From an uncultured Flavobacteriales bacterium (GTDB lineage Bacteria > Bacteroidota > Bacteroidia > Flavobacteriales_G > Salibacteraceae): a DNA stretch of 64,000 bases. Numbering within the stretch: the stretch's first letter is position 1; each line of letters starts with the position of its first letter. Below are positions 3,308 to 6,328 of the stretch, piece by piece. The stretch spans positions 496,001 to 560,000 of the forward strand of contig CAJQLE010000004.1 in NCBI GenBank assembly GCA_905479105.1. Direction: 5' to 3'. A program made the translations under genes and the position numbers. Below the pieces are notes generated by a model that was given only the letters and a program-made list of their open reading frames with translations, did no database searches and had not been told where the DNA came from.

Positions 3308-3919
3308 TTGGTGAGTGTCGATTTGCGTTCTTTTGGATTGAGGCCTAGAGAACTACAAGGACTGATAGGAGTAATTACTTATCCATTGCTTCATGCGGAT
3401 TGGAAGCATATTACTGATAACTCAGTTTCTGCATTTGTTCTGTTGCTAGGTCTGTTCAGTTTTTATGGTAGAATAGGTTGGTCTGTGGTTGGATGGAGTT
3501 GGGTTATGAGTGGAATTTGGATTTGGATTGCTGCCCGTGGCGGTAATCATATTGGGTTTAGTGGAGTCATCTATGCGCTAGCATCCTTTATATTTTTCTC
3601 TGGAGTTGTCAGAAGGCATTATCGATTGATGTCACTATCTCTTGTGGTTGTATTCCTGTATGGATCGATGATTTGGGGAGTGTTACCTATTCAACCAGGT
3701 ATCTCTTGGGAAGGACACTTGTTTGGCGCAATTGCTGGAATGATTCTAGCGTATTATTATCGCAATGAAGGACCTCAAAGACCCAAGTATAGCTGGGAGT
3801 TGGAAGAAGAATTAGAAGATCCTTGGGAAGAAGAAATAGAATATGAAGAAGTTGAAAAACCTGAGGATGAAGACGGCCAACCGCGGGTAGTTTATAATTT
3901 CAAAAAGAAAGAGGATTAA
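3308..3919 (+). CDS. Rhomboid family intramembrane serine protease (true start probably upstream)
   Basis: Multi-pass membrane protease of the rhomboid family. Visible signatures are HADWKHITDN (the conserved HxxxxHxxxN helix), GFSG containing the GxSG serine nucleophile, and GHLFGAIAG with the catalytic His. The acidic cytoplasmic tail, rich in E/D, fits Bacteroidota homologues. The listed start is TTG at 3308, but the frame is open back to 3215 and encodes a typical first membrane segment (STFIVGILWIVFGIDLLV) that the family needs; no ATG, GTG or TTG exists in that extension. So either a rare start (for example ATC 3227 or ATA 3269) is used or the annotation loses TM1. The end overlaps the glucanase gene tail to tail by 4 bp. 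Confidence 0.85.
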   Translation: MVSVDLRSFGLRPRELQGLIGVITYPLLHADWKHITDNSVSAFVLLLGLFSFYGRIGWSVVGWSWVMSGIWIWIAARGGNHIGFSGVIYALASFIFFSGVVRRHYRLMSLSLVVVFLYGSMIWGVLPIQPGISWEGHLFGAIAGMILAYYYRNEGPQRPKYSWELEEELEDPWEEEIEYEEVEKPEDEDGQPRVVYNFKKKED

Positions 3920-5157
3920 TCCAAGATTTTAAAACTGCGCTCTATCGATCCATCCTCAAATCGATAGATCAACAATTGACCGTTTTGAGCTTTTACCTTT
4001 CGTCCTATCATATCATACACTTCAACAACTTTCTTTGACTGAGATTGATGCCGTGGATATATAGATAAAACCGATTCACAAGTTCTGCAATCCTTCCAGC
4101 ACACCGTATCCATAACAATAGGGTCAGAATCATCATTGACGATCACTCCATAGTTCAACCATTCATCGCATGGATTAAAGTCACAGGAGCTTCCTTCGGG
4201 CGCACCACCATTTTCTTCCCAAAAGTTTTTGGTGAAGAGGTATTCATATTTGCCTGGAAGAAGCGACAGCGTGGTTGACCAAACATCTCCATCTTTAGTC
4301 ATGGGTGTGCATGTTCCGCACCAATCGTTGAAACTTCCATTGAGGTAAATAACATCCGAAGCTTCCATTGCTTCTAGTGACATATCTACTGTAAACGTCA
4401 CAGCAACAGTTGGTTGATTAGAATCGGGCTCCAAGATACTTAGTGTCAATAAACCATTCTCTACAGCTACTCCAGCTGGTTTAAAAGTGCAAAAGTTACC
4501 GCTAAAACCGCCAAATTCTTCAATCTTCCACAGGCTCTCATCATAACTGTCAAAGTCATCTTGCCATTTGAATGTAAAGTTGTTGTTCGTCCCAGTATTT
4601 CCTGCACCTGGCGTGTATTCGTAATAGCGCACATAATCATAGCTCGAAGTCACTGGCATGATGGAAGGATCCCATTGTCCAGCCCAATTTACATTATCTA
4701 CTGCCCAAAGGTTCATCATTAATCGCATTGGGTGAATAAGGCCATCCACAAAAGCTTGGTCTTGAACAAATGCTAATGCTCCATCAACAAACCACCTGAC
4801 GATTCCTGGTTCCCACTCAATGATATAATTATGCAGAGAGTCGTGCGGATTGAATGCTGGGCTAAAAGCACTTGTATAGTAAATGGGGCCAGGGTAGTGT
4901 GTCGTGAAAAGAACGTTTTCACTGTTGCCCGTCATCTCTATGTCTATTTCATTGTTCTGTTCAGGCCAGTTACAACCAAGGTCTACATTGTAAAGAAAAA
5001 AGGACGAGATAACACCATCTCCGGCTTCCGACTGCATGGATACTTCAAAACGACCATACAAAAATGCCTCGTGACTGCGGATTTCTCCACCTGTGCATTC
5101 TTGACTATGCAGATGAGATGAGATGAAAAGTAAAAAGAGAAATACAGCGGTTTTCAT
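3916..5157 (-). CDS. Secreted GH16 beta-glucanase with reversed halves, CBM-like module and T9SS tail
   Basis: A 413-residue secreted enzyme with signal peptide MKTAVFLFLLFISSHLHSQ. Residues 20-182 correspond to the later two thirds of a lichenase fold, including the GH16 catalytic motif EIDIE (E70, D72, E74) and the segment VRWFVDG. Residues 194-242 (FTFKWQDDFDSYDESLW onward, ending GLLTLSI) correspond to the strands that normally come first in GH16. This order matches the naturally permuted Fibrobacter succinogenes 1,3-1,4-beta-glucanase, including a YTPGxGxxG linker. Residues 250-355 resemble a glycogen-binding/CBM48-like sandwich (VIYLNGSFNDW). The C-terminus (about 363-413) looks like a divergent type A sorting domain (VEVYDMIGRKV). 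Likely substrate: mixed-linkage or 1,3-beta-glucan; inferred. Confidence 0.88.
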   Translation of the reverse strand: MKTAVFLFLLFISSHLHSQECTGGEIRSHEAFLYGRFEVSMQSEAGDGVISSFFLYNVDLGCNWPEQNNEIDIEMTGNSENVLFTTHYPGPIYYTSAFSPAFNPHDSLHNYIIEWEPGIVRWFVDGALAFVQDQAFVDGLIHPMRLMMNLWAVDNVNWAGQWDPSIMPVTSSYDYVRYYEYTPGAGNTGTNNNFTFKWQDDFDSYDESLWKIEEFGGFSGNFCTFKPAGVAVENGLLTLSILEPDSNQPTVAVTFTVDMSLEAMEASDVIYLNGSFNDWCGTCTPMTKDGDVWSTTLSLLPGKYEYLFTKNFWEENGGAPEGSSCDFNPCDEWLNYGVIVNDDSDPIVMDTVCWKDCRTCESVLSIYPRHQSQSKKVVEVYDMIGRKVKAQNGQLLIYRFEDGSIERSFKILD

Positions 5158-5206: not shown

Positions 5207-6328
5207 TTATTGACTAAGCATCACTGGCATTACCAGCATTACAATATCTTCACTTGCCTCTTTTTCAGAAGGAGATAAAAGTCCGGCTCTATTTGGCGCA
5301 CTCAATAAAAGTTTCACTTCATCTGACTCGAGGTTATTCAGCATCTCAATGATGAATCTACTGTTGAATCCTATGGTGATATCTTCTCCTTTGTAGTTGC
5401 AGTTTAATCGCTCGGTTGCTTCATTGCTATAGTCTAAATCTTCAGCAGAAACCTGAAGGTCACTTCCTTTAATAGCCAATCGAACTTGATGTGTTGTTTT
5501 GTTTGAGAAAATTGAAACCCTTCTAATGCTGTTCAAGAACAACTGACGGTCAATCAACATTTCGTTTGGATTCTCTTTCGGAATAACAGCATCGTAGTTT
5601 GGATACTTTCCATCGATCAACCTGCTTACCAATTTATAGTTCTCAAATGTGAAGGAGGCATTCGTCTCATTGTATTCAATCTCCACATCAGTCGACATGT
5701 TTGAAACCAATGACTTGATTAAGTTCAGAGGCTTCTTTGGCATGATAAAGCTTGCTGCCTTTCCAGACTTGCAGTCGCTTCTTCTATACTTTACTAATTT
5801 GTGTGCATCAGTGGCAACGAACGTGATACCATCTTTTTCTAACGAGAAGTACACGCCACTCATCACAGGTCTCAACTCATCATTACCGGTTGCGAAAACA
5901 GTTTTATTGATAGCATTGAAAAGGATTCCGCTATCAATTTTCAATGAAGAAGAAGATTCCATTTCTGGAAGTCTTGGGAACTCATCTCCGTTTGTTCCAG
6001 CTAATTTGTACTTACCCGTATCAGAAGAAACTTCAATACCGAAAGACTTAGCATCAACGGAGAAAGTAAGAGGTTGGTCTGAAAACGTTTTAAGCATATC
6101 AAGAAGAAGCTTCGCAGGAATACAAACCTTCATGTCATCATCTGCTTTATCCAGATTGATCTCTGAAATCATTGTTGACTCCAAATCTGAACCAGAAACG
6201 ACTAATTTTTTATCCTTTACATCAAATAAGTAATAGCCCAAAATAGGCAAGTTGCTACTTGTGTTCAGAACCCCACTGATGGAGGTCAGTTGTTTCAATA
6301 AATTGCTGCTAGAAACGATGAATTTCAT
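5207..6328 (-). CDS. dnaN: DNA polymerase III beta subunit (sliding clamp)
   Basis: 373 residues, the usual length for the ring-forming clamp that tethers replicative polymerase to DNA. Three repeated clamp folds are recognisable; landmarks include FVATDAHKLVKYRR in the middle domain and the C-terminal VMLVMPVMLSQ, a conserved ending. Start is ATG at 6328 with N-terminus MKFIVSSSNLLKQL typical of the family. A TAnnTTTG match lies at 6378-6385. It lies downstream of gldF-gldG-DUF4340, 110 bp past the DUF4340 stop, so it may be read both from its own promoter and from the operon. Confidence 0.97.
   Translation of the reverse strand: MKFIVSSSNLLKQLTSISGVLNTSSNLPILGYYLFDVKDKKLVVSGSDLESTMISEINLDKADDDMKVCIPAKLLLDMLKTFSDQPLTFSVDAKSFGIEVSSDTGKYKLAGTNGDEFPRLPEMESSSSLKIDSGILFNAINKTVFATGNDELRPVMSGVYFSLEKDGITFVATDAHKLVKYRRSDCKSGKAASFIMPKKPLNLIKSLVSNMSTDVEIEYNETNASFTFENYKLVSRLIDGKYPNYDAVIPKENPNEMLIDRQLFLNSIRRVSIFSNKTTHQVRLAIKGSDLQVSAEDLDYSNEATERLNCNYKGEDITIGFNSRFIIEMLNNLESDEVKLLLSAPNRAGLLSPSEKEASEDIVMLVMPVMLSQ

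Follow-up and report, generated by a model that had tools for sequence, protein, structure and literature searches.

A circularly permuted GH16 protein of an uncultured Flavobacteriales bacterium belongs to a large permuted family

The 413-residue protein described here is encoded in the window, a stretch of 64,000 nucleotides from the 2.79-Mb genome of an uncultured Flavobacteriales bacterium, and is very probably a secreted, naturally circularly permuted GH16 endo-β-glucanase. Its permuted segment order, its predicted fold, its E-x-D-x-E centre and its kinship with a family of permuted proteins were demonstrated computationally. The permutation itself is not new: it is already known from the 1,3-1,4-β-D-glucanase of Fibrobacter succinogenes (PDB 1MVE, 1ZM1), a natural circular permutant (Tsai et al. 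2003, cited in PMC2395249 and PMC4606783). Rather than an isolated counterpart of the Fibrobacter enzyme, the window protein is one of many in a large permuted family. It matches Pfam Glyco_hydro_16 over residues 16–159 with 91.2 bits (gathering score, 22), and its closest named relative in the collections searched is from the Flavobacteriales MAG UBA4422 (83% identity over the domain). The features of the gene and its neighbours are collected in Table 1.

Table 1. Features of the permuted GH16 gene and of the adjoining genes, in window coordinates
Feature	Coordinates	Strand	Basis
Permuted GH16 - CBM20/48-like - short C-terminal tail gene, 413 aa	3916..5157	minus	ORF and Pfam
Signal peptide, residues 1-19	5101..5157	minus	By eye: charged start, hydrophobic stretch, SQ/EC; without lipobox; AF2 helix 2-13
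GH16 catalytic core, residues 21-181 (second part in normal domains)	4615..5097	minus	Pfam, PDB alignment, fold comparison
Catalytic motif E70-I-D72-I-E74	4936..4950	minus	Invariant in all sub-groups
4-residue insert P65-N68, just ahead of the catalytic strand	4954..4965	minus	Alignment
Linker TPGAGNTGTNN (182-192), old C-terminus to old N-terminus	4582..4614	minus	Family alignment
Relocated segment, residues 193-242 (start of a normal GH16 domain)	4432..4581	minus	Profile and structure alignments
CBM20/48-like β-sandwich, residues 247-361, Cys-rich	4075..4419	minus	Pfam, fold, alignment
Short C-terminal tail, YDMIGRKV...LLIYRFEDGSIERSFKIL; sorting-tail variant	3919..4074	minus	Profile comparison
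Rhomboid-like membrane protein, neighbour, convergent	3308..3919	plus	Context only
dnaN, neighbour, named from its own sequence	5207..6328	minus	Context only

Are the halves of this GH16 domain truly reversed, as a preliminary description of the gene had proposed? The residue numbers given there (EIDIE at 70–74, YTPGAGNTG at 181–189 and FTFKWQ... from 194) are correct, and PDB alignment, profile order, an in-silico swap and the AlphaFold fold all confirm the reversal. Along the chain, the core (residues 21–181) is followed by the linker YTPGAGNTG and then by the normally first segment (193–242). In its native order, the protein aligned in one piece (residues 19–242, E = 4e-31) to the F. succinogenes enzyme, and Bacillus-type lichenases in the PDB matched the core only. 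With the segment placed first in silico, the Bacillus structures aligned nearly end to end. Likewise, the NCBIfam lichenase model covered profile positions 79–236 in the native order and a single stretch, 27–236 of 237, once the halves were swapped back. A profile of permuted proteins gave the reversed order as well: on normal-order GH16 proteins, positions 185–246 of the permuted-protein profile matched first, followed by positions 15–183. In the closest lichenase-like normal-order proteins (L167–L170), positions 185–246 matched with E values of 3e-8 to 3e-9.

Structure prediction, a check suggested in the preliminary description, also matched the permuted fold. The AlphaFold model had a mean pLDDT of 86, exceeding 90 across most of the GH16 part, and residues 18–246 superposed on 1ZM1/1MVE (226 aligned residues, Z = 33.6, 1.6 Å rmsd, 29% identity). 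Natural normal-order GH16 structures covered the core alone, up to residue ~181–193, with Z scores of 19 or less. The permutation site is identical in the window protein and the F. succinogenes lichenase, and both carry the linker YTPGxGxxG, in which P183 and G186 are invariant among 29 sequences. The protein thus has the hallmark of the family, i.e. a normally N-terminal segment that follows the core and is joined to it via this linker. The chain start is also equivalent to that of the engineered permuted Bacillus glucanase (1CPM/1CPN), with residue 21 of the window protein corresponding to residue 1; unlike the window protein, that enzyme is man-made and has no CBM.

A chance resemblance, with residues 194–242 forming an unrelated domain, deserves practically no credence. 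The relocated segment is matched in normal-order proteins at profile E values of about 1e-8, the structural alignment runs through residue 246 at 1.6 Å rmsd, and W198, F202 and W210 are conserved across phyla. The profile matches and the alignment of the predicted fold contradict this reading, nothing was found in its favour, and neither a normal strand order nor an unrelated domain was found.

From these data, we conclude that the protein is most likely a secreted, retaining endo-β-glucanase. The E, D and E of the E-x-D-x-E motif, which lies on the jelly-roll, are invariant across the family; by homology to E56, D58 and E60 of the F. succinogenes enzyme, E70, D72 and E74 are the nucleophile, the assisting Asp and the acid/base, respectively. 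The jelly-roll would fold as in normal GH16 domains, with the YTPGxGxxG linker bridging the old ends and a chain start ~50 residues further on. E70 would attack and E74 would serve as acid/base in the retaining hydrolysis of β-glucan, as part of an extracellular pathway; the CBM20/48-type module may keep the enzyme attached to this polymer. The oligosaccharides released would presumably pass to a GH3 β-glucosidase and sugar transporters, which are encoded beside the gene in many relatives. We regard the chances that the substrate is mixed-linkage β-1,3-1,4-glucan as evenly balanced; laminarin or another β-1,3-glucan would be a lesser candidate, and some other substrate carries the same small weight.

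The preliminary description had implied cell-surface or secreted glucan degradation. The assignment to GH16 stands, but lichenase activity cannot be assumed, because cleft residues are changed in the sub-clade to which the window protein belongs. The insert P65–N68 is present in all 20 sub-clade members and absent elsewhere in the alignment. According to the same alignment, N72 and I74 of the F. succinogenes enzyme are replaced by T85 and H87 in 20/20 members; W203 is replaced by G216 in the window protein, and Gly occupies this position in 60% of the sub-clade. Retained are E70, D72, E74 and most of the cleft Trp positions. Relative to the F. succinogenes enzyme, then, the window protein shares the cut site, a similar linker, the fold and the E-x-D-x-E centre; it differs in the 4-residue insert, in having T, H and G in place of N72, I74 and W203, in the CBM20/48-type module and in the short sorting-like tail. 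With the GH16 subfamily 21 licheninases (PMC6827312), it shares the fold family and the catalytic motif; in that subfamily, unlike here, the halves are in normal order. A licheninase of this type would cleave mixed-linkage glucan at its β-1,4 bonds only. The curated NCBIfam BglS model, an equivalog with a cut-off of 300 bits, was missed in both arrangements (108 bits native, 112 bits with the halves swapped).

It is a serious possibility, albeit one that we do not favor, that the sub-clade is not of the lichenase type and, having been retuned, acts on a different polysaccharide or trims the bacterium’s own exopolysaccharide. The insert and both replacements (Asn by Thr, Ile by His) are clade-wide and lie close to the catalytic motif, the gene occupies an isolated position in the window’s genus, and the CBM fold is of the α-glucan type. 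Against such retuning, the catalytic centre is kept, as are most of the cleft tryptophans (W141, W148, W186 and W198 in F. succinogenes numbering), and one sub-clade relative (L068) is placed in a β-glucan locus with the gene order GH3, normal GH16, permuted GH16, GH2-like.

The CBM48-like sandwich proposed earlier is upheld, marginally by Pfam and more clearly by fold. CBM48/AMPK-type Pfam matches lie at residues 267–312, with CBM_48 itself barely over its cut-off (23.3 vs. 22.4 bits); modelled alone, the module forms a CBM20/48 sandwich with Z scores of up to 10.4 to CBM20 and CBM48 structures. Its solved structural neighbours are mostly α-glucan-binding. W279 and W313 are invariant in 19/19 sequences, and we take them to sit at the ligand-Trp positions of the AMPK glycogen-binding domain. 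In its fold and these two Trp positions, the module thus resembles the starch- and glycogen-binding modules of CBM20/CBM48; it departs from them in having seven cysteines, invariant in the same 19 sequences, and in being fused to a β-glucanase. The module follows GH16 in all 20 sub-clade members. In a sister group from Neomarinimicrobiota (L074, L075, L091, L100), it comes before GH16 (E = 1e-10 to 1e-16). The module order therefore differs between the sister groups: before the permuted GH16 in Neomarinimicrobiota, after it in Bacteroidota. The same module also occurs in secreted proteins that adjoin normal GH16 laminarinase-like genes (window’s genome, G051; L176, L040).

Secretion of the enzyme is likely and its delivery to the surface is plausible, but its proposed type IX secretion system (T9SS) tail is a divergent one and not proven. 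PF18962, the C-terminal domain of T9SS type A cargo, found no match to the window protein’s tail down to an E value of 0.1, and more than 90 other tails of the same genome scored above the cut-off. Instead, the last ~50 residues constitute a shortened variant of the type YDxxGRxV...LIYxYxDGSxEK, to which only three proteins of the genome match well. Apart from the window protein, the same short tail is carried by an LxxLDLSxN-repeat protein and an endonuclease-like protein with such repeats (L178 and L181, contig C4).

Might this tail nevertheless be a shortened but working T9SS sorting domain that directs the enzyme to the cell surface? We see the arguments on the two sides as equally weighty. 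The genome encodes the translocon component SprA (2511 bits) alongside its more than 90 standard tails; the corresponding region of sub-clade relatives is either a tail of standard appearance (YPNP, L063) or a set of dockerin-like repeats (L067, L069, L070, L072, L073); and the pattern YDxxGRxV is kept in the window protein. On the other hand, PF18962 fails to match, good profile matches are confined to the three proteins, and ~50 residues is short beside described C-terminal domains, which are seven-stranded (PMC11285876).

The gene has no local polysaccharide locus: its neighbours are dnaN, gldG/gldF-like and rhomboid-like genes, which rules out such a setting. Within the window’s genus, the GH16 gene adjoins dnaN in 4 genomes; in 7 others it is missing there and no gene separates dnaN from the rhomboid-like gene, and 2 further genomes could not be judged. 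One of the genomes lacking GH16 encodes a DnaN that is 98% identical. Because it is present at this site in 4 genomes of the genus and absent from it in 7, the window GH16 is an accessory gene that was gained or lost recently. A phage origin was considered and rejected, as a tblastn search of a phage collection gave no match; IMG/VR yielded just two relatives, both distant and of normal order. Separately, one related genome seemingly has its dnaN split between two frames (L199/L200; G384:C6:153061-154180), probably through an assembly error. Elsewhere in the window’s own genome (C1:388000-393000, L175), a separate glucan locus comprises a sugar transporter, a normal-order GH16 lipoprotein and, judged by eye, a GH30-like enzyme.

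How widespread is the permuted arrangement? A scan of the genomes of 84,980 species returned 272 related stretches, the best 80 of which (L055–L134) come mostly from Bacteroidota, Ignavibacteriota, Calditrichota, Neomarinimicrobiota (Fidelibacterota) and KSB1. Records titled as other phyla are few and probably mis-binned, e.g., the “Euryarchaeota” L064, which is near-identical to Crocinitomicaceae L068. In an even sample of the window’s phylum, 36/395 genomes contained a full-length permuted match (at least 212 bits, extending to model position 244 or further); the next-best matches scored 132 bits and less and ended mostly near position 183. Permuted GH16 was rarer in a class-level sample.

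Many of the relatives have recurrent partners. Among 48 Ignavibacteria-type loci with enough flank, a PorV-family outer-membrane protein is encoded upstream in 35 and a GH3 β-glucosidase downstream in 26 (directly adjacent in 22); MFS or SSF transporters occur in some. A malectin domain is typically present in Ignavibacteria-type proteins, together with a T9SS tail of the standard kind. Other architectures were also encountered: a Neomarinimicrobiota protein (L118:4968-7580, plus strand) with a GH5 cellulase domain and CBM6/35 after the permuted GH16, and ~700-aa proteins (L017:1-2034, plus strand; L171; L174) that combine glycosyltransferase family 25, a weak sulfotransferase-like match and a normal-order GH16. 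A GH16 related to that of the latter proteins is encoded within a 758-aa frame of viral contig L135.

The breadth of the permuted family appears to be new, as do the association of many permuted GH16 genes with PorV-family and GH3 genes and the insert, Asn-to-Thr change and CBM20/48-type module of the window sub-clade. No permuted GH16 outside Fibrobacter was found in the open-licence literature, which is weak evidence, and the main text of the GH16 subfamily paper contains neither “permut” nor “Fibrobacter” (PMC6827312).

A tree was calculated from an alignment put in normal order, including 57 permuted rows. These rows formed one side of a branch with support of 95/95, or 98/97 with the relocated segment left out. 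As drawn, the tree places the F. succinogenes enzyme inside the permuted family, with L011–L014. Among normal-order branches, that of the Paenibacillus macerans lichenase (1MAC) lies nearest (95/99). For the F. succinogenes group, AU tests rejected neither a placement outside all remaining permuted sequences (p = 0.51) nor one next to the P. macerans enzyme (p = 0.37). A single permutation event is favoured, though not proven, by the one-sided branch, the shared junction and the linker.

The AU results would also accommodate more than one permutation, with independent cuts in the same loop for the F. succinogenes lichenase and for the window family. In addition, the engineered Bacillus permutant 1CPM/1CPN, with the same cut, folds normally, and the site therefore tolerates cutting. 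We nonetheless judge recurrence unlikely, given that one branch sets every permuted row apart from the others, with or without the relocated segment, that the junction is identical and that the YTPGxGxxG linker is similar throughout. A broader scenario may be offered tentatively, as possible but rather doubtful: one ancient permutation would have founded a large secreted GH16 family of the FCB group, the F. succinogenes lichenase would be a late offshoot, and the window sub-clade, with its insert, Asn-to-Thr and Ile-to-His changes and CBM20/48-type module, would be a new GH16 subfamily with its own substrate.

For natural permutation in this fold, the standard example is the lichenase of F. 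succinogenes; the same rearrangement is now found in a large uncharacterised set of proteins from several phyla, with recurrent partners. In these permuted proteins, Pfam annotation is limited to the core and overlooks the relocated segment. With this family, one can ask at what point and for what reason a permuted enzyme took the place of the normal one. The moved chain ends now carry CBM, malectin, GH5 and sorting domains: was moving them the advantage?
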